Shown here piece by piece: positions 9,697 to 29,701 of a stretch of 64,000 bases of DNA. A program made the position numbers and the translations under genes. The first letter of the stretch is position 1, and each line of letters opens with the position of its first letter. The notes beneath the pieces were generated by a model, which saw only the letters and a program-made list of their open reading frames with translations, was not told the DNA's origin and did no database searches. This DNA comes from Zobellia alginiliquefaciens (GTDB lineage Bacteria; Bacteroidota; Bacteroidia; Flavobacteriales; Flavobacteriaceae), in NCBI RefSeq assembly GCF_029323795.1, contig NZ_CP119758.1, positions 2,294,001-2,358,000 of the forward strand. The letters are read 5' to 3'.

Positions 9697-10710
9697 ATGT
9701 CTTTAATCTATATCATCCAACGACTAAAAGAAGTAAATAGTTTAACCAAGCACGAGCAACTGGTGCACGGTGTTATAGAAGCTTTGGATTCTGGGGAGCT
9801 ATCGGTTGGAGATAAATTACCTTCCATAAACAAAATGGTGTCCGACATTGGCTATGCAAGAAAGACAATAGTTAAAGCATATGAGGAATTAAAGGAAAGA
9901 GGACTGGTAGAATCTAAAAAATTAAAAGGATATTTTATTATAAGTGATGAAACCAAGGTTACTTTAAGAATAGCCTTGCTTTTATTTTCTTTTCAGCGTT
10001 TTCAAGAAGATTTTTATAATACGTTTAGAAAAGAGTTGGGGAAACGCTATCAAATAGATGTTTTTTTTCATCACAATAATGTTTCCGTTTTTGAAACTAT
10101 ATTTAATAATATTAGAGGGAAGTACGGAATGTATGTGGTTGCGCCTATTCCAGACCAGGTAATCAAACCCTTACTTGAAACAATTGAACCTCAAAAATTA
10201 TTGATAGTTGACCGGTATTTGCCCATGCCGGAAGAATATTCCTATATCTCTCAGGAATTTGAGGCAACTACGTTTGATAAGTTAACAGAGCTGCTTCCGG
10301 AAATTAGAAAATATAAGAAGCTGGTTCTTTTTTATGCTGAAAATAGAGATTACCCACGCGGTATTCTGTTGGCTTTTCACAGGTTCATTGCAGATTATGG
10401 TATAAACGGCGTGGTGTTAGAGGATTATATTGAAGGTTCTCTTGAAAAGGATACGATCTATTTCTTCATTAATGACGCTTCACTCTGGGAGTTGCTTAAG
10501 GATTGCCATAATTCTGATTTAGTAGTAGGGCAAGATGTGGGTGTGCTATCTCATAATGATCATATAATTAAGGAAATTGCTTTTGGGGGCATTACTACAA
10601 TCTCTACGGATTTTAAAGATATGGCTACAATGGCGGCCCATCACGTAAAAAATAACATGGTTTCTAAAACTATTGTAACTTCTAAATTGTTTAAGCGTAA
10701 TTCACTTTAA
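9697..10710 (+). CDS. GntR-type transcription regulator with a periplasmic-binding-like sensor domain
   Basis: The 337-residue protein has an N-terminal winged helix of the GntR type (residues about 15-85, with GDKLPSINKMVSDIGYARKTIVKAYEELKERGL) followed by a LacI-like ligand-binding half (about 92-330, with MYVVAPIPDQVIKPLL, KLLIVDRYLPM, DLVVGQDVGVLSHND). Such proteins bind a sugar or sugar phosphate in the cytoplasm and switch DNA binding. It stands directly upstream of susC and on the same strand, in its own unit. I infer that it reads the repeated TAGCATAG sites at 10853-10872 and 24518-24537. The ligand is unknown. Confidence 0.88.
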   Translation: MSLIYIIQRLKEVNSLTKHEQLVHGVIEALDSGELSVGDKLPSINKMVSDIGYARKTIVKAYEELKERGLVESKKLKGYFIISDETKVTLRIALLLFSFQRFQEDFYNTFRKELGKRYQIDVFFHHNNVSVFETIFNNIRGKYGMYVVAPIPDQVIKPLLETIEPQKLLIVDRYLPMPEEYSYISQEFEATTFDKLTELLPEIRKYKKLVLFYAENRDYPRGILLAFHRFIADYGINGVVLEDYIEGSLEKDTIYFFINDASLWELLKDCHNSDLVVGQDVGVLSHNDHIIKEIAFGGITTISTDFKDMATMAAHHVKNNMVSKTIVTSKLFKRNSL

Positions 10711-11091
10711 TATTGATTCAGTATCGGGTTTTACTGTAGAAATTCAAATTTCTGAATTTTGAAATATCCATTTTTTAGCTCTTAAATTGAGTATTTCTCA
10801 TTTTTGGGAGAATAAATTGTTTTCAGTATCAAAAAATTTCTTATTTTTGCTTTGTAGCATAGTGTAGCATAGATTCTTTCTGCGGTGTTAAATATTTTGT
10901 TGCTCAACACCTTTAAATTTTAGTATTATCAAAAAAAAGGGGGTAACTTGTATTATAATGCCGTTAAAGTGTATTTGTCTAACACTAGGCTTAATTTTGT
11001 TTTTAGTCTTTCTTAACGTTCTCAAGGGTGTTAGGTAGGTCAAGGAACAAAAACTACTAACTCAATTTATTACTAACTTAAACTACTCATT
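10711..11091 (+). other. Intergenic leader between the regulator gene and susC
   Basis: This 381-base region has no credible gene. It holds the susC promoter-operator near its middle and then a leader of about 220 bases before the susC ATG. The first part is A/T-rich; no strong terminator hairpin after the regulator gene was found by eye. Confidence 0.7.
10817..10872 (+). promoter_or_regulatory. susC promoter with tandem 10-base operator repeats
   Basis: A -7 element TATTTTTG sits at 10842-10849, with a TTG at 10817-10819 as possible -33 (spacer 22). Directly downstream the 10-mer TGTAGCATAG occurs twice back to back (10853-10862, 10863-10872). The same arrangement, in the same register to the -7 element, recurs at 24507-24537 before the GH36 gene; from the -7 element to the end of the repeats 26 of 31 bases agree. 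A 10-base period places both half-sites on one face of the helix, as for a dimeric repressor covering the transcription start. Confidence 0.72.
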
Positions 11092-14000
11092 ATGAACCAG
11101 AACTTTAAGAGATTGAATAGGGTTCGAACACACCGTATTGTGCTCGTAGCTTTATTCTTCTTAAGTGTTGCGTCCTTATGCGCACAAACCACAATTTCAG
11201 GTACTACTTCTGACGACCAAGGCGTATTGCCTGGTGTAAACGTATTGGTGAAAGGGACTACCGTTGGAAGCGTTTCCGATTTTGATGGAAATTACAGTAT
11301 AGAGGTGCCGGAAGGCAGCTCTGCTTTGGTTTTCTCCTATGTGGGGTATTCCAAACAAGAAGTGGCCATTGATGGCCGATCAACAATCAATGTTACCTTG
11401 GCCGAAGATGCTCAAGCACTCAGCGAGGTGGTGGTAGTTGGGTACGGTACTCAACGAAAGGCCGATTTAACAGGCGCTGTTGGGTCGCTTGGTAGCGCAG
11501 AGATTGTTTCAAAACCTATTACTAGTCCTGATCAGGTACTTGCTGGTACACTATCTGGGGTTAATATTACTAATAGGAGTGGGGATCCAGGGGCACCAAT
11601 TAACGTGCGTATTCGTGGTATAGGAACACCTGGGGTTAACGATCCATTATGGGTAATAGATGGGGTGCCTATTGTACAAACGAGTAACATCACGGTAAAT
11701 ACCTCTTCTACTACTGATTCTAATCCACTTGCAGGTATTAATCCTAGCGATATAGAATCTATTGATGTTCTTAAGGATGCTGCTTCAGCTGCTATCTATG
11801 GTGCTAGAGCGGCAAATGGAGTAATTATAGTAACTACCAAAAGAGGTAAGGCAGGTGATGCAAAAGTTAATTATGATGGCTATACTTCTTTTAGTCAAGT
11901 AAGAGATAGATATGATGTTTTAAACGTAGAACAATATATTGATATTCAAGGTGAATTAGGAAGAGATGTATCTGAATTCAGTGGCTCCCAATTTGTAGAT
12001 TGGCAGGATGCAATATTTCGTACTGGTTTTGTTCAGAATCACAACGTTACTGTAAGTGGAGGTAGTGAAAATGCAAATTATTTAATATCTGGGGGATATC
12101 TTAATCAAGAAGGTATAGAAGTAGCCCAGGGTTTTGATAGGTATTCTTTTAAGGCTAACTCTGATATTAAAGTTGGAAAGAGATTGCGTTTTGGAGAGTC
12201 TTTATTAATTAGTCAGACAGATCGCTTGGTTCAAAGTGAAGGGGCATTCTTTTCTGGTTTCAATTCAGCTCTAAATGCACCATATTATAAAATTTATGGT
12301 GATGGGCCTTTTGGGTACAATCTAGAAAATCCTGATACAAGTGGTGATGGTACAGGAAACAATTACTTAATGAGGAATGATGAACGTCTTAATAGTACAA
12401 CTATAAGGAATAGAAAGGTTTTAGGTAATTTTTATGGAGAGTTAAAAATTCTCGAAGGATTGAAATTACGTGCTTCTTTAGGATTGGATTACAATGTTGG
12501 TCGAGGGGAGTATTATCAGGCAGCTACTGATTATTCTGGAAACAACCCAAGACAATCGCTTTTGGTGTCTTCTCGCCCCGTTGAATTAACACTTACGCCT
12601 TCAACTACATTACAGTATGATAAAACTTTTGGTAGTGACCATAGCATTTCTGCTCTATTCGGTTTTGAACAGACAGATTTCAGGTTTGATAAGGTAAGGT
12701 TACAAGGGCGTGATCTTTTTAACCAAAACTTTGCAGGTACTGGTTCAACCGTTTCTGGGGCTAATGAAGCTGACAATTGGGTACTACAAGGTTGGTTGGG
12801 ACGTCTGAGTTATAATTATCAAGGTAAATACTTGGCAACGTTTAATGTTCGTAGAGACGCCACTTCAAGATTTGCAGAAGGTAATCGAGATGATTATTTC
12901 CCGTCAGTTTCTGCTGGGTGGAGAATTTCGCAGGAGGAATTCTTTCCAAAAGAAGGATTTGTGGACGATTTGAAGGTTCGTGTTGGATGGGGACAATCTG
13001 GTAATCAATTTACAGGATTGAACTTTGCTTATTTGTTAGCACTGAACAACAATATTAGGTACGTAGTGGGAGATAGTCAGGATACTAAAATAGCCCCAGC
13101 ACCTACAAATTTTGCAAATCAAGATCTCAAATGGGAAACAAGTACACAGCTAGATGTTGGTATAGATGGTGCTTTCATGGATGGAAAATTGAATATGACG
13201 GCTGATTATTATAGTAAAGTAACTCAAGACGTATTACTTGGTCTTCCCGTTCCATATGTTTCTGGTTTCTTCTTGCCTGTAGATGCTAACGTGGGTGAGA
13301 TTAAGAACTCAGGGGTGGAATTTTCGGTTAACTATGGAGATGAAATAGGGGATTTCAACTTTAGTGTTGGAGCAAATATTACCACAGTAAAAAATGAAGT
13401 TACAGATTTAGGAGAAATAAATCAGATTGTTACAGGTCTTGGAGGGCCTGATACGCACCGTACAATAGTTGGTGAAAGCTTAGGTCATTTTTACGGCTAT
13501 AAAACTGATGGTCTGTATCAAAATGATGCTGAGGTCGCTGCTGCGTTGCCTGATGCAAATGGAACTCCTTCTCCGGGAGATATCAGATTTGTTGATGTAA
13601 ATGGAGATGGAAAGGTAGATTCGGACGATAGAACCTATTTGGGAAGTCCTTTTCCAGGTTTTTTCTACGGATTTAATTTTCAAGGTGAATATCATGGTTT
13701 TGACTTTTCGGTTAACTTTAGAGGAGTTGGTGATCAGCAAGTTTATAATCAAGCGCGTACGAGCTTGGAAAATTTAGATGGCGCGAATAATTTTAGTACC
13801 CAGGTTTTAGATCGATGGACAGGAGAGGGAACAACCAACTCTAGTTCTAATCCAAGACTTGTTAGAAATGATCCGAACGGTAATAATCGTTTTTCGGACC
13901 GTTGGGTTGAAGACGCGGGTTATTTGCGTATTCAAAATATCCAATTTGGATATAGTCTTCCCTCTGATAAGCTAAAAGGCTGGACAGGTGATTTTGTTTC

Positions 14001-14187
14001 TAGAATGCGGTTTTATGTAGGTGTACAGAATCTTGCGACATTTACTAAGTATTCTGGTTTTGACCCTGAAGTGGGCCGTACTCAGAGTTTCCAAAAAGGT
14101 GATTTTACATTGGCTAGCGGTCAAGATGGTGGGGCTTCTCCATTACCAAGAATAGTACAGTTAGGCTGGTCAGTTACATTCAATTAG
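11092..14187 (+). CDS. SusC/RagA-type TonB-dependent outer-membrane transporter
   Basis: The 1031-residue protein has a signal peptide ending near residue 31 (ASLCAQ), a carboxypeptidase-regulatory-like domain (about 34-115, TISGTTSDDQGVLPGVNVLVKG), the SusC linker EVVVVGYGTQ, a plug domain (about 128-235, with PLWVIDGVPI and DAASAAIYGARAANGVIIVTTK), and a 22-stranded barrel to the end. With the SusD lipoprotein encoded next it forms a lid-and-barrel pump that imports an oligomeric ligand using TonB energy. It is the first gene of a five-gene unit with SusD, two FG-GAP lipoproteins and a haloperoxidase-fold lipoprotein. The ligand cannot be read from sequence. Confidence 0.96.
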   Translation: MNQNFKRLNRVRTHRIVLVALFFLSVASLCAQTTISGTTSDDQGVLPGVNVLVKGTTVGSVSDFDGNYSIEVPEGSSALVFSYVGYSKQEVAIDGRSTINVTLAEDAQALSEVVVVGYGTQRKADLTGAVGSLGSAEIVSKPITSPDQVLAGTLSGVNITNRSGDPGAPINVRIRGIGTPGVNDPLWVIDGVPIVQTSNITVNTSSTTDSNPLAGINPSDIESIDVLKDAASAAIYGARAANGVIIVTTKRGKAGDAKVNYDGYTSFSQVRDRYDVLNVEQYIDIQGELGRDVSEFSGSQFVDWQDAIFRTGFVQNHNVTVSGGSENANYLISGGYLNQEGIEVAQGFDRYSFKANSDIKVGKRLRFGESLLISQTDRLVQSEGAFFSGFNSALNAPYYKIYGDGPFGYNLENPDTSGDGTGNNYLMRNDERLNSTTIRNRKVLGNFYGELKILEGLKLRASLGLDYNVGRGEYYQAATDYSGNNPRQSLLVSSRPVELTLTPSTTLQYDKTFGSDHSISALFGFEQTDFRFDKVRLQGRDLFNQNFAGTGSTVSGANEADNWVLQGWLGRLSYNYQGKYLATFNVRRDATSRFAEGNRDDYFPSVSAGWRISQEEFFPKEGFVDDLKVRVGWGQSGNQFTGLNFAYLLALNNNIRYVVGDSQDTKIAPAPTNFANQDLKWETSTQLDVGIDGAFMDGKLNMTADYYSKVTQDVLLGLPVPYVSGFFLPVDANVGEIKNSGVEFSVNYGDEIGDFNFSVGANITTVKNEVTDLGEINQIVTGLGGPDTHRTIVGESLGHFYGYKTDGLYQNDAEVAAALPDANGTPSPGDIRFVDVNGDGKVDSDDRTYLGSPFPGFFYGFNFQGEYHGFDFSVNFRGVGDQQVYNQARTSLENLDGANNFSTQVLDRWTGEGTTNSSSNPRLVRNDPNGNNRFSDRWVEDAGYLRIQNIQFGYSLPSDKLKGWTGDFVSRMRFYVGVQNLATFTKYSGFDPEVGRTQSFQKGDFTLASGQDGGASPLPRIVQLGWSVTFN

Positions 14188-14226
14188 AACCTTGTTAAAG
14201 TCATTTAATATAAAAATATAGCTATC

Positions 14227-15753
14227 ATGAAAAAATATATAATACTTGCCAGTATCTTCCTCGCTTTTTCTTGTGGGGAAAAGGAACTGGACCTGTTGCC
14301 TTTAGATAGGGTAACTGCCGATACCTTCTACAAAACCCGAGGAGATTTTGACGGTGCTGTTTTTGCATCATATTCATCAATACAAGATTTATGGGGTATC
14401 AGTGCAGAAACTTTAGGTGAAAATGGGGAATATTGGAAAATTTCTGTTGTCATTGGGGATGATGCAAATGCGGATACAGAAGTTGGTGATGCCGTTTCCC
14501 AAGATATTGATAAACTCCTTATTCGTTCTAGCGATGTGCCATACGGAGCAGCGTATACTCAAATTTATGAGGGGATATATAGAGCGAATTTAGTTTTGGA
14601 AAATGTGAATGGAGAGAATGAATTAACTGAAGAGGATAAAACTATTATTGACGCTGAGGCTAAGTTTTTAAGAGGCTGGTTCCATTTCCAAGCTTTAAAA
14701 ATGTTTGGTACACCACCACTGGCAATAGAGGTTAAGACGGACCTTAATGATTTGGCACTTGCAAATGCAACACAAGAAGAATTATACACCTCTATTTTGG
14801 CTGATTTAACAGATGCTGCGGCCGGCCTTCCTGCTGAATGGGATGGAGCAAATACGGGAAGAGCTACTTCATGGGCTGCCAAATCCTATATCGGAAAGGT
14901 TAATGTTTGGAAAGAAGATTGGGCAGCCGCAATTACAGCTTTTGATGATGTAATGGTGAATGGGCCATATATGTTGATGCCTGAATATAGTAACAACTTC
15001 AGTCATCTTTTCGAAAACAATGCGGAGTCAATTTTTGAAATTCAATTTGGCGGACCATTTTCTGATGATAATATATGGGTGTTTGATGATACACACTCTG
15101 AAAACTTTAAGGCATCTCAAGGCACTACTAGAAGCTATCATTGGGGGGCAGGAAATGGAGCTCCAGGGGGAAAGCGTGGTTGGTTTATACCCTCTCAAGA
15201 ACTTCTGAATGCTTATGAGCCTGGTGATTCTAGATTAGGAACTACAATTTATCAAGAGGGAGAAGAGTATTTTGTATGGTCAGGTAATCAGGTTGTAACG
15301 GAGGCTTATGACCCTGAATGGTCTTCAAATGGTCTTAGTGCGAAGAAGTATTTGGGAGAAGAAAATGCTGTTGGAGCGAACAGGTCACCTAATGGGGCTT
15401 CAGATTTTAATAATGAGCGTTGGTTTAGATTTGCCGAACTTAAATTACTTTATGCAGAGGCGTTGATTCAAGGTGGAGGTGATGTTGGACTTGCTTTTGA
15501 CGAAATTGATGATATTCGCGATAGAGCTGGTTTAGGCCCTGTTGACCGTTCGCAAGACCCAATGGATGCTTTAATGCAAGAAAGAAGGGTTGAATTGGCA
15601 TTGGAACCACATAGATATTTTGATATAACCAGATGGGGTATTGGAGCTGAAATTTTTGGAGCGGCTTGGGATGACAAGTACAATGTATTTCCTTTTCCAC
15701 TTACAGAAATCGATAGGTCTAAAGGACTGTTGATACAGAACCCAGGATATTAA
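14227..15753 (+). CDS. SusD/RagB family surface lipoprotein
   Basis: The 508-residue lipoprotein has a lipobox ending at C16 (LAFSC) and then the SusD start DLLPLDRVTADTFYKT. The TPR-like helical core includes IYRANLVLENV and AEAKFLRGWFHFQALKMFG, and the C-terminal SusD signature includes RFAELKLLYAEALIQGG, DIRDRAGLGP and QERRVELALEPHRYFDITRWG. It is the ligand-binding lid of the SusC transporter, 39 bases downstream of susC. A strong hairpin follows before the next gene. Confidence 0.95.
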   Translation: MKKYIILASIFLAFSCGEKELDLLPLDRVTADTFYKTRGDFDGAVFASYSSIQDLWGISAETLGENGEYWKISVVIGDDANADTEVGDAVSQDIDKLLIRSSDVPYGAAYTQIYEGIYRANLVLENVNGENELTEEDKTIIDAEAKFLRGWFHFQALKMFGTPPLAIEVKTDLNDLALANATQEELYTSILADLTDAAAGLPAEWDGANTGRATSWAAKSYIGKVNVWKEDWAAAITAFDDVMVNGPYMLMPEYSNNFSHLFENNAESIFEIQFGGPFSDDNIWVFDDTHSENFKASQGTTRSYHWGAGNGAPGGKRGWFIPSQELLNAYEPGDSRLGTTIYQEGEEYFVWSGNQVVTEAYDPEWSSNGLSAKKYLGEENAVGANRSPNGASDFNNERWFRFAELKLLYAEALIQGGGDVGLAFDEIDDIRDRAGLGPVDRSQDPMDALMQERRVELALEPHRYFDITRWGIGAEIFGAAWDDKYNVFPFPLTEIDRSKGLLIQNPGY

Positions 15754-15800
15754 TAATCTTCTTTTAGGGTTTCCCTAAAAAGTATGGTAATTTTACTGAA

Positions 15801-15840
15801 AGGAATCCAATTTTTGATAACCCCTAGATTGGATTCCTTT
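15801..15840 (+). terminator. Hairpin between susD and the FG-GAP genes
   Basis: AGGAATCCAAT and ATTGGATTCCT form a perfect 11-base stem with a 16-base loop, followed by TTCTATTC, only a weak T-run. It lies 48 bases after the susD stop and 31 bases before the next ATG. As no new promoter is obvious downstream, it is more likely a partial terminator or an mRNA-processing/stability element that lowers expression of the following three genes than a full stop. Confidence 0.6.
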
Positions 15841-15868
15841 CTATTCATAGACGTATTTAATTGCTTTC

Positions 15869-18800
15869 ATGTTCGCTACGTATAAAATCGGTTTGTTTTA
15901 TTACACACTCTTCTCCTGCGTGGTATTGTGTTTTACTTCATGCTCTCAAAAGGACCAAACGCTTTTTAGAGAGATTCATCCTTCTGAATCGGGACTTGGG
16001 TTTCAGAATACTTTAGCACTAACGGATTCCCTAACCATACTAGATTTTGAGTATATGTACAATGGGGCCGGTGTTGCTGTGGCCGATTTTGATTTGGACG
16101 GCCTTCAGGATGTCTATTTTACGGGAAATATGGTGAGCAACCGCCTGTATCGTAACCGAGGTGACTTTAAATTTGAAGATATTACAGAGTCGTCAAATGT
16201 GGGTTCTGCACACTGGTCCAATGGCGTGGCTATCGTTGATATCAATCAAGATGGTTATCCAGATATTTATGTTTGTAGGGCAGGGCCTAGAGACTCCAAA
16301 AGTGTAGATAAAGCAAACTTATTATTTGTAAATAATGGCTTGAAAGATGGAAAACTATCCTTCACGGAAGAAGCTCAAAAGTGGGGTTTGGCAGATACAA
16401 GTTATTCGGTGCAATCAGTCTTTTTTGATTATGATGGTGACGGCGATTTGGATATGTATCTATTGAACAATGCATTGGTAGATTTCAACCGAAATACGGC
16501 AAAACCTAAAGAAGGTCGAGAAAAAGTTCCTTCTGTAGATAAACTCTTTAGAAATGACAGTGGTGAGAACGAAGCTAGGAATCCCGTTTTTACAGATGTT
16601 TCGGCCGAATCAGGTATTTCTATTGAAGGGTATGGTCTTGGTATTGAAGTATGTGATATGAATTCAGATGGTTGGCCAGATATCTATGTGTCCAATGATT
16701 TCCTTACGGATGATTTGCTTTACATCAACCAAAAAGATGGAACTTTTAAAAATGAAATAGCCACCTATTTTAAGCATCTTACATTTAATGGTATGGGCAA
16801 TGATATTGCCGATATTGATAATGATGGTAATATGGATGTTGTGGTGCTGGATATGCTGCCGCCTGATAATAAACGATGGAAGCTGACTATGATGGGCAAC
16901 AATTATGATCAGTTTAGAAATAGGTTGGATTATGGTTACCAACCTCAATACATTAGAAATACGCTGCAATTGAACAATGGCAACGGATCGTTTAGTGAAG
17001 TTGGGCAGCTCACCGGAATTGATGCTACAGAATGGAGCTGGAGCGCCCTTTTTGCAGATTTTGACCAAGACGGACTTAATGACCTCTGCATTACAAATGG
17101 ATACAGACAAGATATTACCAACCTAGACTTTATGGTGTATGGTGACCGTGTGCTCACCATGGGTACCGAAGAGGCGAACAGAAAAAAACGCATTGAAGAG
17201 CTGAATAAACTGCCGGGCATAAAAGAAACGAACTATTTTTTTAAAAATATGGGAAACTTAAACTTTCAGGACCAATCTGAAGATGTCGGTTTTGACAAGC
17301 CGACTTACTCAAACGGAATGGCTTATGCTGATTTTGATAATGACGGTGATTTGGATCTTGTGACGAATAATATTGATGATCCTGCCGGCTTGTACGAAAA
17401 CACGCTATCTTCTGAGACAAACAAATATATTAGATTCAAGTTCAAAGGTTCGGAAAAGAACAAACAAGGATTGGGAAGCAAGGTTCATATTTTTTATGCG
17501 GATAGTGTACAAAAAAAGTATTTTACTCCTTATCGCGGCTATTTATCTACAGTTGAGCAAGCGCTACATTTTGGAGTAGGACAATCCAAAGAATTGGATA
17601 GCGTAAAAGTCATATGGCCCGATGGGAAGACTCAAAAGTTGGTAGCTGTTGCTGTCAATCAAGAAATCGTGCTTAAGTATGAGAATGCTGTGGACGGAAA
17701 ACAAACTACAAACAATGAGATATCTAAAACATGGTTTCAGCCAACGGATAATGTAGGTCTCAATCGGTTCCATGTAGAGAATGAATTTGTAGATTTTAAG
17801 GTTCAGGCATTGTTGCCGCACATGCATTCTAAAAACGGGCCTGGATTAGCGGTAGCTGATGTTAATGGTGATGGTTTAGAGGATTTGTACGTTGGGGCGG
17901 CAACGGGTCAAGCAGGAGCATTGATGGTTCAAAAGCAGGACGGTTCTTTTGAAACGGTGGAGTTTGATGAAACAAAGAATGAAGACATGGGCGCCTTATT
18001 TTTTGATGCTGATAATGACGGAGACCAAGATTTGTATGTCGTTAGTGGGGGATCGTCTTATCCGGTTGGTAATAAGGCATATCAAGATAGGCTTTATGAA
18101 AATGATGGATTAGGCAAATTTAATCTGGTTAATGCGCTGCCAAATATGTGGGTAAGTGGGTCCGTAGTTACGGCTGCGGATTATGATAAAGATGGTGATT
18201 TGGACCTTTTTGTGGGTGGAAGAGTAAGACCTGGTGAATATCCATTACCTCCTGAAAGCTTCCTTTTAAAAAATAATAGTAATGCTAATGGTATAAAATT
18301 CAGTACGGATTCGCAGTCTATCAGTTCGGTGTTTAAAGATTTGGGCATGGTAACTTCCGCTTTATGGACGGATTATAATAATGATGGTTGGCAAGATTTA
18401 ATTGTGGTAGGGGAGTTTATGGCGGTTCGTTTCTTTCAGAATAATAAGGGTGAATTATCCGAAGTTATGGAAGAAACGGGTCTTTCGCACACAAATGGTT
18501 GGTGGAACAGTATAACTTCCGGTGATTTTGATAATGATGGGGATCTTGACTATATCCTGGGGAATCTTGGTCTCAACAGTAAATTCAAGGCCAGTTCAAC
18601 AGAACCTTTGTGTATCTATGCTAGCGATTATGATAAGAATGGTCAAATAGACCCGGTCATGTGTCATTATGTAGATGGAGAAAACTATGTGGCGCATTCA
18701 CGCAATGATTTAATAAGCCAGATTAATGCTATGCGTTCACGTTTCAGAACGTTCTCTGACTATGCCAATGCCACTTTTGAAGATTCTTTTTTACAGGAAG

Positions 18801-19405
18801 AAATAGAAAATGCCTATGTAGTACGTAGCGAGACTTTTGCCAATTCCTACCTTGAGAATTTAGGCAATGGAGAGTTCAAACTTTCAGAATTGCCAAGAAC
18901 GGCGCAGATTGCTCCTATGTATGGTATGATGGTTGGAGATTATAATAATGACCAAAACCTAGATGTTTTGGCGGTTGGAAATTTCTATAGTGGGGAAGTA
19001 TTCTCAGGTAGGTATGATGCCTCTATAGGGTGGTTGTTGCTAGGTGACGGCGAGGGCAATTTCAGTAAGGCCAATGTCTCTCAAAGCGGGTTTTTCGTGG
19101 ACGGAGATGCAAAAAGCCTTGTAGGCTTAAATGCGGGAAAAAAGGAATTAATCGTGGTTGGAATAAACAATGCTGAGTTAAAAAGCTTTTATCGACCGGT
19201 AAAAAACCGAATTTATAAGCCGAAACCTAATGAAGTTGCTGCTTTAATAACATTTAAAAATGGAATGAAACAAAAAGTAGAGTTCTATTACGGCGGAGGT
19301 TACTTGTCAGGCTCAAGTAGAAATTTAATCATTCCGGATTCTGCAGTTTCCCTAAAAATTATAGATGATAACGGTGTTGAAACCGAAATTTTGACGAACC
19401 TATGA
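15869..19405 (+). CDS. FG-GAP/VCBS repeat lipoprotein with ASPIC/UnbV domain (CRTAC1 family), copy A
   Basis: The 1178-residue exported protein has a lipobox at C25 (CFTSC). It carries about 14 DxDxDG-type calcium loops such as DFDLDGLQD, DINQDGYPD, DYDGDGDLD, DVNGDGLED and DYDKDGDLD, consistent with two beta-propellers of about seven blades. Between them, near residues 535-590, is an ASPIC/UnbV-type block (GYLSTVEQALHFGVGQ, VIWPDGKTQ). This class is common in SusC/SusD loci of marine Bacteroidetes, with no established role; binding of a ligand or partner protein on the surface is likely. The gene overlaps its paralogue by four bases (ATGA). Confidence 0.88.
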   Translation: MFATYKIGLFYYTLFSCVVLCFTSCSQKDQTLFREIHPSESGLGFQNTLALTDSLTILDFEYMYNGAGVAVADFDLDGLQDVYFTGNMVSNRLYRNRGDFKFEDITESSNVGSAHWSNGVAIVDINQDGYPDIYVCRAGPRDSKSVDKANLLFVNNGLKDGKLSFTEEAQKWGLADTSYSVQSVFFDYDGDGDLDMYLLNNALVDFNRNTAKPKEGREKVPSVDKLFRNDSGENEARNPVFTDVSAESGISIEGYGLGIEVCDMNSDGWPDIYVSNDFLTDDLLYINQKDGTFKNEIATYFKHLTFNGMGNDIADIDNDGNMDVVVLDMLPPDNKRWKLTMMGNNYDQFRNRLDYGYQPQYIRNTLQLNNGNGSFSEVGQLTGIDATEWSWSALFADFDQDGLNDLCITNGYRQDITNLDFMVYGDRVLTMGTEEANRKKRIEELNKLPGIKETNYFFKNMGNLNFQDQSEDVGFDKPTYSNGMAYADFDNDGDLDLVTNNIDDPAGLYENTLSSETNKYIRFKFKGSEKNKQGLGSKVHIFYADSVQKKYFTPYRGYLSTVEQALHFGVGQSKELDSVKVIWPDGKTQKLVAVAVNQEIVLKYENAVDGKQTTNNEISKTWFQPTDNVGLNRFHVENEFVDFKVQALLPHMHSKNGPGLAVADVNGDGLEDLYVGAATGQAGALMVQKQDGSFETVEFDETKNEDMGALFFDADNDGDQDLYVVSGGSSYPVGNKAYQDRLYENDGLGKFNLVNALPNMWVSGSVVTAADYDKDGDLDLFVGGRVRPGEYPLPPESFLLKNNSNANGIKFSTDSQSISSVFKDLGMVTSALWTDYNNDGWQDLIVVGEFMAVRFFQNNKGELSEVMEETGLSHTNGWWNSITSGDFDNDGDLDYILGNLGLNSKFKASSTEPLCIYASDYDKNGQIDPVMCHYVDGENYVAHSRNDLISQINAMRSRFRTFSDYANATFEDSFLQEEIENAYVVRSETFANSYLENLGNGEFKLSELPRTAQIAPMYGMMVGDYNNDQNLDVLAVGNFYSGEVFSGRYDASIGWLLLGDGEGNFSKANVSQSGFFVDGDAKSLVGLNAGKKELIVVGINNAELKSFYRPVKNRIYKPKPNEVAALITFKNGMKQKVEFYYGGGYLSGSSRNLIIPDSAVSLKIIDDNGVETEILTNL

Positions 19406-22400
19406 AAATGTTGAAACCTTTAATATTCGTGTGGGGTCTCTCATTTCTATTTGTGGGTTGTGGCGCGAAAGAAACGCATCGTTTTCGGTTGTTAGATACT
19501 GCTAAAACAGGCATCGATTTTCAAAATACCATTACAGAAAACGATAGTATCAACGTATTTGAGTTTATGAACGTGTATACCGGTGCCGGTGTGGCAGTAG
19601 GTGATATAGACAATGACGGCCTTACCGATGTCTATTTTAGCGGGAACATGGTTTCAGGTAGGTTGTATCGGAACAAAGGAAACTTTCAATTTGAGGATAT
19701 CACGGAAAAATCGGGACTTCTAAATACACGTTGGGGTACGGGGGTAAGTATGGTAGATATTAACCAAGATGGATTTTTAGATATTTTTGTGTGCGTTTCA
19801 GGAAGCGCAGAGATTTCCGAGCGTGCCAATATGCTTTATATCAATAACGGTGATATGACCTTTACCGAAATGGCCGAGGAGTATGGTCTTGCGGATACAA
19901 GGCAAAGCATGCACTCCGCATTTTTAGATTTTGATAAAGATGGTGATTTAGATATGTACCTACTGGTAAATCCTGCCGCTTACGAGTATAATGTTAATGT
20001 TAGTAAACCACGTGAGATTGATGGGCAGTCCGTAAGTAATGACCGTTTGTATAAAAATTTGGGGAACGGCAAGTTTGAAGATGTTTCGGTAGACGCAGGA
20101 ATTCTAGTTGAAGGGTATGGCCTGGGTGTAGGGATCTCTGATATTAATGGCGATAACTGGCCTGATATTTATGTGTCCAATGACTTTATAGGGAATGATA
20201 TTCTCTATATCAACCAAAAGGATGGTACATTCAAAGACCAGATTACGGAGCAAATAAAGCATACTTCTTATGCGGGAATGGGAAATGATGTGGCAGATGT
20301 GGATAATAATGGTGAGCCCGATATTATGGTATTGGATATGCGGCCAGAAGACAATGAACGTCAAAAATTGATTATTTCCTCAACGGGTTATGACCGTTTT
20401 CAAATTATGTTAGATGCAGGTTACAATGCACAATACAGTCGCAATACGCTGCAATTGAACCAAGGTCAGGATAAGTTCAGTGAAGTTGGATTTATGGCAG
20501 GCATTAGTAGCACGGATTGGAGCTGGAGCCCATTATTGGCCGATTATGATAATGATGGGCGCAAGGATTTATACGTTACCAATGGTTTTTTAAGGGATTT
20601 AGGAGATTTGGATTATATCCATTATCAGAAAGCTTATGACAGCCCTGTAGGTGATGTGGATACAAAAATTAAAATGAAATTGAAATCCATAAGTGAACTG
20701 CCCATGGCAGATTTACCTAACTACGCCTATCGTAATAAAGGGGATATGACTTTTGAAAAAGTTTCCGATAGTTGGGGGATTGATAAAGCCAGTTGTTCCC
20801 ATGGTGCAGCATATGCCGATCTGGATAATGATGGGGATTTGGATTTACTGGTGAACAATATGGATCAACCTGCTTTTGTATATGAAAACGTGGGGCTTCC
20901 AGAGAAAAAAAATCACTATCTAAAAGTCAAGCTGAATGGAAAAAAAGGCAATCTGCAAGGAATCGGAGCTAAATTAAAGCTGACGACCGCAGACTCTGAG
21001 CAGTTCTATCAGCATTATTTAAGTAGAGGCTATGAGTCTAGTGTAGACCCTACGGCACATTTTGGTTTGGGACAGAGCAAAGAAGTGAAAAGTATTGAAG
21101 TTTGGTGGCCAAATGGTACATATCAGATTTTGAAGAACCAGGCAGTTGATACAATCTTGACATTGAAACAGTCAGATGCTATCAAAAATAGTCCAGAACA
21201 AAAAGACTTAAAGAATCAGTTTTTCTCTGATATAACGGATAGTTTAGGAGTAAGCTTCAAGCATAAGGAAGACGACTTTGTAGATTTTAAATTACAGCCT
21301 ATTTTACCGCATATGCATTCCCGAAACGGACCTGGTTTGGCTGTTGCCGATGTAAATGGAGATGGCTTGGAGGATTTTTATATCGGAGGAGCTACCGGCC
21401 AAGCAGGGGAATTATTTTTGCAGATGCCAGATGGCAGTTTTGTTTCAAATGAAGGTTTAGATGCCCATTTAGAAGACATGGGTGTTTTGTTGTTTGATGC
21501 CAATGGTGATGGTCATACTGATTTGTACGTGGTTAGTGGTGGGGTAAGTGCCAATACCGATGCTGAAATATATCAAGACAGACTTTACGTAAATGATGGC
21601 AAAGGTGGTTTTGCCCGGTCTGATGCTTTGCCTGCAATAAGTGCAAGCGGATCGTGTGTAGTTGCCAATGATTATGATAAGGACGGAGATTTAGATTTGT
21701 TCGTGGGTGGTAGGGTTAACCCTGGTAAATATCCAATGCCAACACAGAGTTACTTGCTCCAAAATCAATCATCAGATAGTGACTTTAAGTTTGTTGATGT
21801 AAGCAACCAGATTGAAGGTTGGGAGGAGCTGACAATGGTAACGTCTGGTTTGTGGACGGACTATGATAATGATGGGTGGACAGACCTCATAGCTGTTGGT
21901 GAGTTTATGCCAATAACTATTTTTCATAATGAAAAAGGAAGATTGGTATTGCAAAAAGAAACCACAGGACTAACTAAAACCGAAGGATGGTGGAACAGCA
22001 TCAACGGTGGTGATTTTGATCAAGATGGGGATATTGATTATATTTTGGGTAACCTTGGATTGAACAATAAATATACAGTCAGCCGTGAAGAACCTCTATG
22101 TATTTATGCTAATGATTATGATAAAGATGGCAGGATAGACCCTATAATGTGCTATTTTATTGACGGTGAAAACCATTTGGCACATTCACGTGATGAAATT
22201 ATTGGACAGGTCAATGCTATGCGTAGTAGGTTTAAAACCTATAAATCATATGCCGAGACCAGTTTTGATGAATCGTTTTTACCAGAAGAATTAAAAAATG
22301 CCTATGTAGTCAAGAGCCATACCTTTGCCAGTAGTTATTTGGAAAATTTGGGTAACGGAAAATTTGAACTTCGTGAGCTTCCACTGGCGTTACAAACAGC

Positions 22401-22908
22401 GCCAATAGAAGGTACAGTGGTAGATGACTTTGATAAGGATGGAAATTTAGATGTGCTCATGACCGGTAATTCGTATGCTACGGAAGCGGCAACCGGGCGT
22501 TATGATGCTTTTATTGGTGCATTCTTAAAAGGAGACGGTACGGGGACTTTTAGAAATATCCCTTTGGATGAAAGCGGTTTTGTAAATGATTTAGACGCGA
22601 GTGGCTTGGCTTTGATATATTCGGATAAAAAACAGACGATACTGGCAGCAAATAATGATAATCAGCTAAAAGTATTTCAGGAAAAAGGGCACGGTAAAGC
22701 AAAGACGATTTATATTGAAAATGATGTGCTTTCCGCCTTTGTAAAACTGAAGAATGGTCGCGAATACAAGAAAGAATTTTATTTTGGGTCGGGCTATTTG
22801 TCACAGAGCAGTAGGCGTATTTTTCTTAATGAGAACATTGAGAAAATTGAAGTTACAGATAGAAACGGAAATACAAAAACAGTGTATTTAGATGAAGAAG
22901 TTAGGTAG
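19402..22908 (+). CDS. FG-GAP/VCBS repeat lipoprotein with ASPIC/UnbV domain (CRTAC1 family), copy B
   Basis: The 1168-residue paralogue of the preceding gene has the same layout: a lipobox at C20 (LFVGC), about seven calcium loops (DIDNDGLTD, DINQDGFLD, DFDKDGDLD, DYDNDGRKD, DLDNDGDLD), an ASPIC/UnbV-type block (about residues 530-590, AHFGLGQ, VWWPNGTYQ), and seven more loops ending with DFDKDGNLD. Identical stretches such as LPHMHS, NGPGLAVADVNGDGLED and NAMRSRF show an old tandem duplication; divergence in the N-terminal propeller suggests different partners. Translation is coupled to copy A by ATGA and to the haloperoxidase gene by a 17-base overlap. Confidence 0.88.
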   Translation: MKMLKPLIFVWGLSFLFVGCGAKETHRFRLLDTAKTGIDFQNTITENDSINVFEFMNVYTGAGVAVGDIDNDGLTDVYFSGNMVSGRLYRNKGNFQFEDITEKSGLLNTRWGTGVSMVDINQDGFLDIFVCVSGSAEISERANMLYINNGDMTFTEMAEEYGLADTRQSMHSAFLDFDKDGDLDMYLLVNPAAYEYNVNVSKPREIDGQSVSNDRLYKNLGNGKFEDVSVDAGILVEGYGLGVGISDINGDNWPDIYVSNDFIGNDILYINQKDGTFKDQITEQIKHTSYAGMGNDVADVDNNGEPDIMVLDMRPEDNERQKLIISSTGYDRFQIMLDAGYNAQYSRNTLQLNQGQDKFSEVGFMAGISSTDWSWSPLLADYDNDGRKDLYVTNGFLRDLGDLDYIHYQKAYDSPVGDVDTKIKMKLKSISELPMADLPNYAYRNKGDMTFEKVSDSWGIDKASCSHGAAYADLDNDGDLDLLVNNMDQPAFVYENVGLPEKKNHYLKVKLNGKKGNLQGIGAKLKLTTADSEQFYQHYLSRGYESSVDPTAHFGLGQSKEVKSIEVWWPNGTYQILKNQAVDTILTLKQSDAIKNSPEQKDLKNQFFSDITDSLGVSFKHKEDDFVDFKLQPILPHMHSRNGPGLAVADVNGDGLEDFYIGGATGQAGELFLQMPDGSFVSNEGLDAHLEDMGVLLFDANGDGHTDLYVVSGGVSANTDAEIYQDRLYVNDGKGGFARSDALPAISASGSCVVANDYDKDGDLDLFVGGRVNPGKYPMPTQSYLLQNQSSDSDFKFVDVSNQIEGWEELTMVTSGLWTDYDNDGWTDLIAVGEFMPITIFHNEKGRLVLQKETTGLTKTEGWWNSINGGDFDQDGDIDYILGNLGLNNKYTVSREEPLCIYANDYDKDGRIDPIMCYFIDGENHLAHSRDEIIGQVNAMRSRFKTYKSYAETSFDESFLPEELKNAYVVKSHTFASSYLENLGNGKFELRELPLALQTAPIEGTVVDDFDKDGNLDVLMTGNSYATEAATGRYDAFIGAFLKGDGTGTFRNIPLDESGFVNDLDASGLALIYSDKKQTILAANNDNQLKVFQEKGHGKAKTIYIENDVLSAFVKLKNGREYKKEFYFGSGYLSQSSRRIFLNENIEKIEVTDRNGNTKTVYLDEEVR

Positions 22909-24214
22909 TTTACTTATATTATGTTCGGTTTTACTGGTGTCATGCGGCACCAAGCATAATCAAGAAGGGCTGGATGCCTATTTTGAAGGAGGGTTGTCAA
23001 AATATAATCGTCAACTTACAGATGTTATAGTTGCCGATATTTTTACACCGCCAGTCGCAAGTAGAATTTATGCCTATTCAAATGTAGCCGCTTATGAGGG
23101 TATTCGTTTTGCCGATGCATCAAAAAAATCCTTGGCCGCTACACTCAATAATTTAGAAAAACTGCCTGAACCTATTGCTAATAAAGAGTACTATTACCCT
23201 TTGGTTTCTGCAGTGGCATTCATGAATGTGGGTAAATCCTTAGTTTTTGATTTGGATAAAGTTGAAGCTATTAAGGGTGATATGTTGGCCGAAATTAAAG
23301 CTATTGGTATTGATGCAGTGGTTTATGAAAATTCGGTGTCTTTTGGTGAAGAGTTAGCTGCTGAAATCTTAAACTGGGCCGCGAAAGACGGGTACCTTCG
23401 TCGTACGGCACTTCCCAGGTATTCTGTAAATGATGACGCTGGCCGTTGGAAACCCACGCCTCCGGATTATATGGAAGCAATAGAACCACATTGGAATACC
23501 ATTCGTCCGTTCGTTTTGGATTCCGCTGGGCAGTTTGATCCAGGTTTACCTACCGCTTTTGATTTAGAAAAGGATTCTAAATTTTACGAAGAAGCTATTG
23601 AGGTGTATGAAACGGTTAATCAGTTAGACGATAAACAGCTGGAAGTTGCTAAGTTTTGGGACTGTAATCCTAATATTTCCCATACTAAAGGGCATGTTAT
23701 GTATTTTCAACAACAAATATCGCCTGGAGGGCATTGGATGCATATTGCAGCACAAGTTTTGGAAGAAGAAAAAGCTAATGGAGTAACCGCTGCGGAAACC
23801 ATGTCTTTATTAGGGGTAACTATTGCAGACGCATTTATAAGTTGCTGGGATCAAAAGTATAAGAGTAGCTTAACCAGACCAGAAACCTATATTAACAATT
23901 ATATAGATCAAGATTGGGAGCCTATTCTACAAACTCCAGCTTTTCCTGAGCATACTTCGGGTCATAGTGTGGCTTCGAGTGCTGCAGCAACGGCACTGAC
24001 AGCATTATTTGGTGAGAATTATGCTTTTGTAGATGCAACAGAAGTTCCTTATGGTCTACCGCCACGAAGCTTTCAGTCGTTTTGGCAAGCCGCGGAAGAG
24101 GCGGCTATTAGTCGTTTGTATGGTGGAATACATTACCGTCCCGCCATTGAACTCGGTGTACAACAGGGTAGGGCCATTGGTAATTTTGTGGTTAAGAGCG
24201 TAGAATTCGAATAA
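22892..24214 (+). CDS. Vanadium-dependent haloperoxidase / PAP2-fold lipoprotein
   Basis: The 440-residue lipoprotein has its lipobox at C18 (LLVSC). The vanadate site of haloperoxidases is complete by pattern: K322 and R329-P (KYKSSLTRP, spacing 7), S356-G357-H358 (PEHTSGHS), and R408 and H414 (SRLYGGIH, spacing 6). Known relatives either oxidise halides with peroxide or act as acid phosphatases in the same fold; which one applies here cannot be told. It is the last gene of the susC unit and starts inside the preceding gene, so it is made together with the two FG-GAP lipoproteins and should sit in the outer membrane or face the periplasm. Confidence 0.87.
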   Translation: MKKLGSLLILCSVLLVSCGTKHNQEGLDAYFEGGLSKYNRQLTDVIVADIFTPPVASRIYAYSNVAAYEGIRFADASKKSLAATLNNLEKLPEPIANKEYYYPLVSAVAFMNVGKSLVFDLDKVEAIKGDMLAEIKAIGIDAVVYENSVSFGEELAAEILNWAAKDGYLRRTALPRYSVNDDAGRWKPTPPDYMEAIEPHWNTIRPFVLDSAGQFDPGLPTAFDLEKDSKFYEEAIEVYETVNQLDDKQLEVAKFWDCNPNISHTKGHVMYFQQQISPGGHWMHIAAQVLEEEKANGVTAAETMSLLGVTIADAFISCWDQKYKSSLTRPETYINNYIDQDWEPILQTPAFPEHTSGHSVASSAAATALTALFGENYAFVDATEVPYGLPPRSFQSFWQAAEEAAISRLYGGIHYRPAIELGVQQGRAIGNFVVKSVEFE

Positions 24215-24676
24215 TAGGATTGTTCTCCATATGGGTTTTTTCCGGTCAGGAATCTGGTTCGCCTGAGCATCCATTTACTAGCATTGGTCTTTTATGGAAA
24301 AAGAAAGAAATTTCCCATGAATCACTTAATTTATCTGTATATTCAAGGCTGAATTTGTCAAAACCTTCATTTAAAAATAAAGGAGGCTCTTTCACAGGTC
24401 TTAAAAATTCGTTGTTTTTATTCTGTTATTGATAAGTTTTTGAGCTATGAGTCAAGTATTTATAGTTATTTGAACCAATTTTTTTTGAAGGTGATGGAAT
24501 ACGCTGTATATTTGTTTAGTAGCATAGTATATCATAGTATTGATAAAATATTTGTTCATGCTCTTTCTTACAACGAACCGCACGACATTTTTACTTTCTT
24601 GAGTTATTCTTTGTTCAACTAGAAGAATTATAAAATAATGAACGGCTAATTGATTCTGGCCTAATAATATATTTAG
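24215..24676 (+). other. Intergenic region before the GH36 operon
   Basis: This 462-base region has no gene I can support. Its 3' half holds the promoter-operator shared with susC (24484-24537) and a leader of about 140 bases. A 70-codon frame at 24220-24432 has no recognisable family or start context. No strong hairpin was found after the haloperoxidase gene. Confidence 0.65.
24484..24537 (+). promoter_or_regulatory. Promoter-operator of the GH36 operon, matching that of susC
   Basis: TTTG at 24484-24487, a 19-base spacer and TATATTTG at 24507-24514 form a textbook Bacteroidetes promoter. Immediately downstream is TAGCATAG (24520-24527) followed by the degenerate copy TATCATAG (24530-24537), one helical turn apart. 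Both the repeats and their distance from the -7 element equal those at 10842-10872. The most direct reading is a shared operator for the GntR-type regulator encoded at 9697-10710. Confidence 0.75.
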
Positions 24677-26446: not shown

Positions 26447-26456
26447 CGAACTTCAA

Positions 26457-27017
26457 ATGACCGAAAAAGAAAAAATGATTGGCGGACAGCCTTATAACCC
26501 TCATGATAAGGAATTGGTGAGAGGGAGGTTGAACGCAAGAAGATTAATGCGTGAAATTGAAGCCATACCCATGGATAAAGAACGCCAACGGAAACATTTT
26601 TTCAAAGAGCTATTCGCGGAGACCGGTAAAAACTTCTATATAGAAAATCGTTTTACTTGCGATTATGGCTTCAATATTTATTGGGGAGAAAACTCATACG
26701 CTAATTTTGATTGTATTATTTTAGATGCAGCACCAGTTTATATTGGTAAAAATGTGATGATGGCCCCTGCAGTAAAACTACTTACGGCAACACATCCTTT
26801 AGAGTTTGAAGCTCGCAATTCCGGTATTGAATATGCAAAACCCATAAAGATTGGCGATAATGTCTGGATTGGTGGCGGGGTAATCGTTAACCCAGGGGTT
26901 ACTATAGGAAAAAACAGTGTTATAGGTTCAGGGAGCGTTGTAGTGAAAGACATTCCTGAAAATGTAGTTGCTGTTGGTAATCCGTGTCGTGTACTAAAGA
27001 AAATTGATAACTCCTAA
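26457..27017 (+). CDS. Sugar O-acetyltransferase (maltose/galactoside acetyltransferase family)
   Basis: The 186-residue protein has an N-terminal Mac domain (KMIGGQPYNPHDKELV), a left-handed beta-helix of hexapeptide repeats (IYIGKNV-type VYIGKNVMMAPAVKL, IKIGDNVWIGGG, VTIGKNSVIGSG), and the catalytic histidine H113 in TATHPLE. It transfers acetyl from acetyl-CoA to a sugar hydroxyl in the cytoplasm, as LacA and Maa do. Its place between the GH36 enzyme and the symporter mirrors the lac operon order of glycosidase plus acetyltransferase and suggests detoxification of non-metabolised sugars. Confidence 0.9.
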   Translation: MTEKEKMIGGQPYNPHDKELVRGRLNARRLMREIEAIPMDKERQRKHFFKELFAETGKNFYIENRFTCDYGFNIYWGENSYANFDCIILDAAPVYIGKNVMMAPAVKLLTATHPLEFEARNSGIEYAKPIKIGDNVWIGGGVIVNPGVTIGKNSVIGSGSVVVKDIPENVVAVGNPCRVLKKIDNS

Positions 27018-27064
27018 TTATAGCTCCTCTCATACTCTCAACACCAACTTAAAACACCAAAAAT

Positions 27065-29557: not shown

Positions 29558-29701
29558 AGTATTGGCAAAACTAGATTTATTCTGCAAAGCTAGAACGGTT
29601 TAAAACAAAAAAATCACGTTTTTTTGGTCTGGTTGGTCGTTTTTATAGGAAAAAGGGCAGAAGCTTTTATAATTTACGAAATAAAACGGTACCGCTGGAA
29701 A

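Follow-up and report, generated by a model that had tools for sequence, protein, structure and literature searches.

What do two giant FG-GAP lipoproteins and a haloperoxidase-type lipoprotein contribute to a SusC/SusD locus? This question is raised by a locus of Zobellia alginiliquefaciens lying in the window, the whole stretch of 64,000 nucleotides that was analysed. One iodoperoxidase of bacterial origin has been crystallised, and enzymes of this type have been linked to marine iodine uptake. Our preferred reading, to which we give an even chance, is that the locus forms one arm of a regulon by which the cell feeds on a glycerol alpha-galactoside (floridoside or a red-algal relative of it being the likeliest), and that a removable FG1-FG2-VHPO cassette for peroxide and iodide chemistry has been added to it.

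Gene content of the locus

The susC and susD genes adjoin, as in SusCD utilisation loci, and are followed by three lipoprotein genes (Table 1). According to the ORF list, the five genes lie where an earlier note on this DNA had placed them, with both overlaps, namely a stop-start ATGA between FG1 and FG2 (19402-19405) and 17 bases between FG2 and VHPO (22892-22908). Family profiles bear out its description of a susC-susD pair with two giant FG-GAP lipoproteins and a haloperoxidase-fold lipoprotein. A lipobox-like cysteine could be read off near the N terminus of SusD, FG1, FG2 and VHPO; a cysteine occupies the column of FG1 Cys25 in 56 of the 59 aligned FG proteins and that of VHPO Cys18 in all 12 aligned VHPOs, and these proteins are presumably located at the cell surface.

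Table 1. Positions in the window of the genes and sequence elements of the locus.
Feature	Position	Strand	Evidence
GntR-type regulator	9697-10710	+	PF00392 39 bits; PF13377 24.9 bits, just below cut-off 26.5
-7 promoter motif TAnnTTTG, before susC	10842-10849	+	motif match
Operator-like repeat copy 1, before susC	10855-10872	+	pattern search; none in 100 shuffles
SusC/RagA-type TonB-dependent transporter	11092-14187	+	TIGR04056 861 bits, cut-off 368
SusD-like surface lipoprotein (predicted)	14227-15753	+	PF07980 108 bits; PF14322
Stem-loop between susD and FG1	15798-15841	+	folding versus shuffles
FG1, giant FG-GAP/UnbV_ASPIC lipoprotein, double beta-propeller, 1178 aa	15869-19405	+	PF13517 253 bits; PF07593 UnbV_ASPIC 77 bits
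FG2, FG1 paralogue (50% identical), 1168 aa	19402-22908	+	PF13517 255 bits; PF07593 88 bits
VHPO, vanadium-haloperoxidase-type lipoprotein, VIPO1 family, 440 aa	22892-24214	+	PF01569 46 bits, cut-off 27
-7 promoter motif TAnnTTTG, second transcription unit	24507-24514	+	motif match
Operator-like repeat copy 2, before GH	24520-24537	+	pattern search; none in 100 shuffles
Alpha-galactosidase-like glycoside hydrolase (GH), clan GH-D-like	24677-26446	+	phmmer, Foldseek, sub-cut-off Pfam
Maltose/galactoside O-acetyltransferase-like protein	26457-27017	+	matches below equivalog cut-offs
Sodium/sugar symporter, vSGLT-like	27065-28714	+	NF007790 740 bits, cut-off 401; E 1.3e-60 to 2xq2

The 115-nt gap between susD and FG1 folded with a z-score of -4.6 against 200 shuffles, and the arms of its stem-loop were also present in congeners and at an empty site that is without the cassette (L295); possibly this is an element that sets expression. 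Scans for sigma-70 promoters and terminators gave scores below the shuffle mean.

Genes for the GH, an acetyltransferase and an SGLT-type symporter lie co-oriented 3' of VHPO. The claim that the locus carries no glycosidase had to be given up, because a conserved glycosidase-like gene, preceded by the same operator-like repeat as susC, starts 463 bases beyond the point at which the earlier note had ended the operon. The best phmmer match of its product was weak (E 2.7e-6), every match to a Pfam glycosidase family was below the cut-off, and among the 50 Foldseek matches listed the top ones were alpha-galactos(amin)idases, with TM-scores by query of 0.46-0.59 and rmsd values of 6.5-14 for a model with a pLDDT of only 67. 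No signal peptide was seen in the GH sequence, and profile searches recognised no surface glycanase among the nine proteins scanned (9697-28714). The locus is like SusC/SusD polysaccharide utilisation loci in its SusC/SusD pair, adjacent regulator, symporter and glycosidase-like gene, but differs in that no surface glycosidase was recognised among these nine proteins, that FG-GAP giants and an enzyme of the haloperoxidase type make up the predicted surface lipoproteins, and that the regulator is of the GntR type.

Operator-like repeat and candidate substrate

The 18-bp operator-like repeat is adjacent to the promoters, the TAnnTTTG sequence being what we take to be the Bacteroidetes-type -7 motif, and was found at two sites in the window and at none in 100 shuffles. 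When the own genome was searched with a pattern from the two window sites alone, a site with one mismatch was found before glpK (GlpK 733 bits, cut-off 590). Across nine Zobellia genomes the repeat was present before susC in eight, before GH in nine and before glpK in nine, and a reversed-pattern control in the same genomes gave no site before any of the three genes. With a pattern broadened from known sites (the own glpK site included, so that sites in the source genomes fit by construction) and no more than one mismatch allowed, 39 sites were found in these genomes, of which 26 lie before susC, GH or glpK and 13 are unexplained. The repeat was found in Zobellia only. A site at GalM/GAPDH/TetR was rejected as a regulon member, as it occurs in only two of the nine genomes (G000 and G004), and the site at 1648827 is weak and probably due to chance.

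In all nine Zobellia genomes the repeat-bearing promoter is immediately preceded by a GntR-type gene. The product of this gene, which judged by sequence may have a periplasmic-binding-like ligand domain, is likely to read the repeat and would act by repression. The placement of the repeat before susC, GH and glpK points to a galactoside of glycerol, for example floridoside, as the substrate. SusC/SusD would import the alpha-galactoside of glycerol across the outer membrane, the symporter would carry the galactoside, or galactose derived from it, across the inner membrane, a cytoplasmic GH would split the galactoside, and GlpK and GlpD would consume the released glycerol.

Conservation and block absence of the lipoprotein genes

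In 29 of the 55 loci sampled outside the family (with a VHPO locus other than the best one used for the genomes G284 and G195), the VHPO gene directly adjoins a giant FG-GAP/UnbV gene, where about 0.3% would be expected by a rough estimate. Within the VHPO clade of the window, 17 of 18 rows are FG-adjacent and 16 have the exact order susC-susD-FG-FG-VHPO. The co-occurrence, which might have been limited to one genome, recurs across the phylum, in many cases with SusC/SusD in view. The proposed company of these lipoproteins with SusC/SusD holds for the clade of the window. In 17 of the 55 sampled loci no same-strand FG gene was in view beside the VHPO. The parts available to us of the literature searched (including PMC5064120, PMC9296495, PMC8490876, PMC11871015, PMC10643221 and PMC3174227) contained no description of the VHPO-FG-SusC/D association. 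Iodoperoxidases that stand beside giant propeller lipoproteins and SusC/D across the Bacteroidota would be tied to nutrient capture.

FG and VHPO could instead be a stand-alone surface module that is found in sugar operons merely for co-expression and has no role in uptake. This would fit seven related loci with FG-VHPO and no SusC/D found in the stretch (L239, L247-L252), as well as four further loci of the own genome (L013-L016), which share SusC/D and FG giants with the window locus and lack a VHPO. SusC or SusD was in view, however, in 25 of the 55 loci outside the family and, among the 38 family loci, in 24 (stretches cut at about 10-20 kb; some genomes contribute more than one of the 38, and distant paralogues, L084-L089, are among them), and we consider such a module rather unlikely. 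Sulfatase-like genes accompany L013 and a LacZ/GH2-like gene L015, both below NCBIfam cut-offs.

The sugar genes beside the VHPO vary. GlpK-like genes occur in 8, GlpD-like genes in 9 and kojibiose-hydrolase-like GH65 genes in 11 of the VHPO loci named here, which are the best 80 of 583 and lie in many cases on short contigs; in the 55 sampled loci a GlpK-like gene was in view in two and a GlpD-like gene in none. The GH is present in 8 of the 16 loci with the five-gene order, and a Saprospiraceae locus (L105) has a GlpD-like gene between a VHPO of the window's clade and the GH. Xylose isomerase and xylulokinase were found in 5 of 33 family VHPO/FG loci, and trehalase or alpha-amylase-type genes in others. 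This variety implies that glycerol glycosides are not the only setting of the cassette.

Two Zobellia genomes lack the whole FG1-FG2-VHPO block and retain SusC/D, GH, symporter and repeats, which marks the block as an accessory cassette. As had been supposed, the three genes form a set: they are conserved together, absent together in these genomes, and associated phylum-wide. The earlier note had also proposed, as a possibility, a surface complex that modifies its ligand oxidatively; for the imported ligand this could mean oxidation or halogenation. The haloperoxidase family and the conserved co-occurrence with SusC/D in the window's clade are in line with this, but where the pathway is kept without the cassette the ligand is presumably usable unmodified and uptake itself may not need the cassette, and like cassettes accompany several different sugar genes; we regard ligand modification as unlikely. 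Natural Zobellia strains with and without the cassette, Z. uliginosa being one that lacks it, together with the candidate operator and regulon, make its role directly testable.

The haloperoxidase-type and giant propeller lipoproteins

In a phmmer search of PDB sequences, the window VHPO matched 4cit with an E-value of 4.3e-136 over residues 9-436 of 440, and nothing else at E 0.001. The entries 4cit and 4usz are those of Zg-VIPO1, the vanadium iodoperoxidase of Zobellia galactanivorans. Residues K322, R329, S356-G357-H358, R408 and H414, which fit the vanadate-site motif of vanadium haloperoxidases (K, R, S-G-H, R, H), are invariant in the 12 aligned VHPOs. On its sequence, the window VHPO belongs to the iodoperoxidase (VIPO1) group, sharing with Zg-VIPO1 near-full-length homology, the vanadate-site residues, a lipobox and a place directly after FG giants; the Z. 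galactanivorans VHPO identical to 4cit (450 residues) lies directly 3' of three of these. It differs in being only 49% identical to VIPO1, the best match being a second Z. galactanivorans copy (80%), and its halide specificity, like its activity of iodide oxidation, is predicted. Two proteins that by eye look SRPBCC-like and propeller-like lie beside VIPO1-type loci; the window has neither.

An oxidative role, one of two suggested earlier, is favoured by this iodoperoxidase-type enzyme. Phosphate removal, the other, would make VHPO a PAP2-superfamily phosphatase at the surface, which strips phosphate from a phosphorylated sugar or from a glycerol-phosphate compound prior to uptake by SusC/D. 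The only positive point that the protein itself offers for this is its superfamily membership: it falls in the PAP2 Pfam family, and the seven vanadate-site residues are common to VHPOs and PAP2 phosphatases. The operator-like repeat is, in addition, shared with glycerol-phosphate metabolism. A phosphatase was dropped as first choice because the sole PDB sequence match, over near-full length, is the iodoperoxidase, and we find it quite improbable.

FG1 was modelled as a double beta-propeller (pLDDT 90.5), and its best fold and sequence matches were CRTAC1, the closest, and integrin alpha. An UnbV_ASPIC domain comes after the FG-GAP propeller in the giants, as in CRTAC1-like proteins. The propeller with DxDxDG loops is common to the giants, CRTAC1 (PDB 9etn) and integrin alpha, and the UnbV/ASPIC domain to the giants and CRTAC1; the giants differ in having two propeller units per chain, a predicted lipid anchor, a bacterial origin and no EGF domain from Pfam. 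With 12 DxDxDG-type loops in FG1 and 13 in FG2, of the calcium type, both may bind calcium. A sample of 40 genomes gave 210 UnbV_ASPIC matches, or 5.25 per genome, the giants being only part of these, and such common, uncharacterised proteins gain here a first functional context. An enzymatic role of the giants was rejected: aldos-2-ulose dehydratase came only at rank 50 in Foldseek amid many generic propellers, and the matches of a 59-sequence profile were to CRTAC1, to integrins and, weakly, to one esterase (E 0.01), with no aldos-2-ulose dehydratase among them.

In the preferred reading, a sugar-uptake system has gained FG1-FG2-VHPO as a removable cassette of outer-membrane lipoproteins. 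The probable part of the propellers would be to bind either a surface or a ligand, and VHPO would work at the cell surface with H2O2 and iodide from the alga. We place most weight on peroxide and iodide chemistry during feeding on algae, which may help the cell to withstand the oxidative burst of the alga or to damage the alga or competitors. A further reading, in which integrin-like propellers attach the cell to the alga, hypoiodous acid made by the surface-anchored iodoperoxidase from algal H2O2 and iodide causes algal cells to leak small osmolytes (for instance floridoside, glucosylglycerol or trehalose), and SusC/D and the cytoplasmic enzymes are tuned to the leaked compounds, seems to us very doubtful. 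Iodine uptake by Arenibacter C-21 requires glucose, oxygen and calcium, a source of H2O2 can replace the glucose, and five or more homologues of VIPO1 are present in this strain (PMC5064120). In Arenibacter palladensis, we found the arrangement FG-FG-VHPO (L156).

The lipoprotein gene set

ORF reading returned the five plus-strand genes susC, susD, FG1, FG2 and VHPO at the coordinates proposed in the earlier note; FG1 and FG2 overlap by ATGA, FG2 and VHPO by 17 bases. Family profile searches named SusC (TIGR04056, 861 bits), SusD, two giant FG-GAP_3/UnbV_ASPIC proteins (FG1 and FG2, 50% identical to each other) and one PAP2-superfamily protein, the vanadium-haloperoxidase-type VHPO. The 115-nt gap between susD and FG1 (MFE of the gap -32.7 kcal/mol, z -4.6) contains a strong hairpin, which may set SusC/D expression above that of FG/VHPO. 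Visual inspection traces its arms in congeners and at the empty site in locus L295.

The window VHPO matched the Z. galactanivorans vanadium-dependent haloperoxidase 4cit/4usz (E 4.3e-136, residues 9-436), and the PDB sequence search gave no other relative at E 0.001 or better. Residues K322, R329, S356-G357-H358, R408 and H414, which we take to be the vanadate ligands, are invariant in the VHPO alignment (n=12). The genome taken here as Z. galactanivorans (G005), on the strength of a protein 100% identical to 4cit (Zg-VIPO1), encodes that protein directly after three FG giants (L059), and the crystallised iodoperoxidase is therefore a member of the same type of gene set; no description of this FG context was found in the literature accessible to search. 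Its set has a SusC/D pair upstream with other genes intervening (L256), and loci such as L068, L073 and L076 have SusC-SusD-FG-FG-FG-VHPO without interruption. The window VHPO shows 80% identity to the other Z. galactanivorans copy and 49% to VIPO1. Work by Fournier in 2014 is said to have found two Z. galactanivorans enzymes strictly iodide-specific.

A single open frame of 1554 aa in one Zobellia genome (G004) covers both the third FG giant and the VIPO1-type VHPO, the same region being two genes in the other genomes compared; the junction sits at an A-run, so that either a sequencing error or a natural fusion could account for it. Proteins of ~300 aa without Pfam match and of ~290 aa, weakly propeller-like (below cut-off), were observed 3' of VIPO1-type VHPO genes in numerous loci of Flavobacteriaceae (26 and 17, respectively).

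FG1 was modelled with AlphaFold2 from 59 natural sequences (pLDDT 90.5, pTM 0.90), and we interpret the model as a pair of beta-propellers with an Ig-like/UnbV region after each. Murine CRTAC1 was its best fold match (E 8.9e-26, TM by target 0.71), and the FG profile search matched CRTAC1 (4.7e-28), integrin alpha chains (from 1.4e-9) and, weakly, one esterase (0.01). There are 12 DxDxDG-type loops in FG1 and 13 in FG2. We infer that both are calcium-stabilised binding or scaffold proteins. A ~195-aa protein without Pfam match was seen among FG giants in 17 loci (L066, L071, L075, L102 and 13 more).

Conservation of the gene order

VHPO relatives were detected in 28 of 99 near genomes and in 100 of 395 genomes sampled across the phylum (68 of 170 genera). 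From this sample, one VHPO locus was taken from each of the 55 genomes that belong to other families and match at E 1e-117 or better, the locus used differing from the best-scoring one in two of them. An FG giant was the same-strand neighbour of VHPO in 29 of the 55 loci and lay on its strand within the stretch in 38, with SusC or SusD in view in 25. The corresponding numbers were 30, 44 and 25 for the best 80 of 583 named loci, and 28, 30 and 24 for 38 of the 39 loci fetched from the own family; the 39th (L060) was left out, as FG and VHPO are in one frame there and VHPO is uncalled. At an average of 5.25 UnbV_ASPIC matches per genome (210 in 40 of the 55), a chance FG neighbour is expected in roughly 0.3% of loci, assuming about 4,000 genes per genome. 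Against the association, whole VHPO groups have no FG in view, and the tree requires 26 state changes, some from short contigs. In L239 and L247-L252, FG-VHPO is present and SusC/D was not found within the stretch.

A FastTree phylogeny of 167 VHPOs places the window VHPO in a clade of 18 rows (SH-like support 100), 17 with FG adjacent. Conservation of the order susC-susD-FG-FG-VHPO, raised in the earlier note, was borne out, all five genes being so placed in 16 of the 18 rows, among them Flavobacteriaceae, Agaribacillus and Saprospiraceae MAGs; of the other two, L090 has three FG but SusCD is not in view, and L096 is a 10-kb contig without FG. The locus is a variant within SusC/D loci and not a separate category.

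Empty sites and a shared repeat in Zobellia

Six of the nine Zobellia genomes carry FG1-FG2-VHPO. G004 and Z. uliginosa (G008) have the GntR regulator gene, SusC, SusD, the repeat, the alpha-galactosidase-like gene (GH), acetyltransferase and symporter, with FG and VHPO absent in between, and G001 has only GntR-repeat-GH-acetyltransferase-symporter. VHPO relatives in G004, G008 and G001 reach 49% at most against the window VHPO, so a window-type VHPO is lacking in all three. In Z. uliginosa the susD-side homology reaches to within a few bases of the FG1 start and restarts ~212 bases past the VHPO stop. The cassette-free site represents either loss or an ancestral empty site; on both views the three lipoprotein genes are gained or lost together, and the genes of the pathway can be present in their absence.

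The 18-bp repeat TAGCATAGTRTAKCATAG occurs twice in the window, each time 5 bases past a TAnnTTTG box, and its pattern was found in none of 100 shuffled windows. The own genome has five sites within two mismatches. One of these, with a single mismatch, lies at the glpK start; glpK scores 733 bits (cut-off 590), and a glycerol-3-phosphate dehydrogenase-like gene comes next. With the pattern broadened on the basis of known sites and at most one mismatch allowed, the nine Zobellia genomes contain 39 sites, and the reversed pattern, used as control, gave none in them. Of these, 26 precede susC (8/9 genomes, the G001 locus lacking susC), GH (9/9) or glpK (9/9), three with one mismatch (G008 susC, G001 GH, G004 glpK). 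The remaining 13 lie elsewhere, two before a TetR gene near GAPDH-/GalM-like genes (own genome and G004); the own-genome TetR site is perfect, and such a site was found in 2/9 Zobellia genomes. The non-Zobellia loci scanned gave no match closer than three mismatches. Judged from sequence, the repeat is probably an operator.

Coordinates of features in the window and in other loci
Feature	Location	Strand
Repeat before susC	window 10855	
Repeat before GH	window 24520	
GH-like gene	window 24677	+
Acetyltransferase	window 26457	+
SGLT-type symporter	window 27065	+
PAP2-like protein	window 28724-29587	-
Repeat before TetR gene (L261)	G000:C1:4892098-4892115	
Second VHPO locus, own genome (L011, L012)	G000:C1:2475763-2494094	
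~300-aa protein	L011:9814-10719 and relatives	
~290-aa protein	L011:8913-9908 and relatives	
Joined FG/VHPO frame	L060:13333-17997	
Xylose isomerase/xylulokinase-like genes	L062:5263-8074; L069, L070, L072, L074	

Candidate substrate

GH, an acetyltransferase gene and an SGLT-type symporter gene lie downstream of VHPO on its strand. The best sequence matches of GH, in which no signal peptide was seen, are alpha-galactosidases (phmmer 2.7e-6), as are its best Foldseek matches (TM by query 0.46-0.59 among the 50 rows listed; model pLDDT only 67). Z. galactanivorans has GH-acetyltransferase-symporter in the window's order (L258), and two loci of Saprospiraceae, L098 and L105, also have GH by a VHPO of the window clade, L105 having a GlpD-like gene between VHPO and GH. 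A PAP2-like protein with PSGH and SR motifs, noted by eye, adjoins the symporter, an order retained in congeners.

The apparently shared control of glycerol catabolism, a sugar symporter and an alpha-galactosidase-like enzyme suggests a glycerol galactoside as the substrate. One such compound is floridoside, a galactosylglycerol. Red algae use floridoside as a main storage carbohydrate (PMC8703398). With families assigned through representatives, VHPO loci in the best 80 of 583 named and the 55 sampled, respectively, contained glycerol-kinase-like genes in 8 and 2, GlpD-like genes in 9 and 0, MIP-channel genes in 5 and 1, and kojibiose-hydrolase-like GH65 genes in 11 and 5. Such neighbours would suit glucosylglycerol, which is an independent hint. 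Counter to a glycerol link, xylose isomerase and xylulokinase(-like) genes lie by VIPO1-type VHPO in five of the 33 loci of the family, and some VHPO loci have genes for trehalase or of alpha-amylase type.

On these sequence comparisons, our preferred reading, to which as a whole we give an even chance, is a regulon for glycerol galactosides that has acquired a surface cassette, made up of the propellers and the enzyme of iodoperoxidase type. Iodine uptake by Arenibacter C-21, the genome of which has at least five VIPO1 homologues, depends on glucose, oxygen and calcium, glucose not being needed given H2O2 or an iodide-oxidising system (PMC5064120). In Z. galactanivorans, a gene labelled vIPO3 is up on Ascophyllum versus alginate (PMC9296495). 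The physiology of both would agree loosely with an iodoperoxidase cassette.

The second VHPO locus of the own genome is FG-FG-FG-VHPO with SSF and SusCD, and is probably tied to alpha-glucoside use, since the set is divergent from LacI, beta-phosphoglucomutase, GH65 phosphorylase-like and GH13-like genes.
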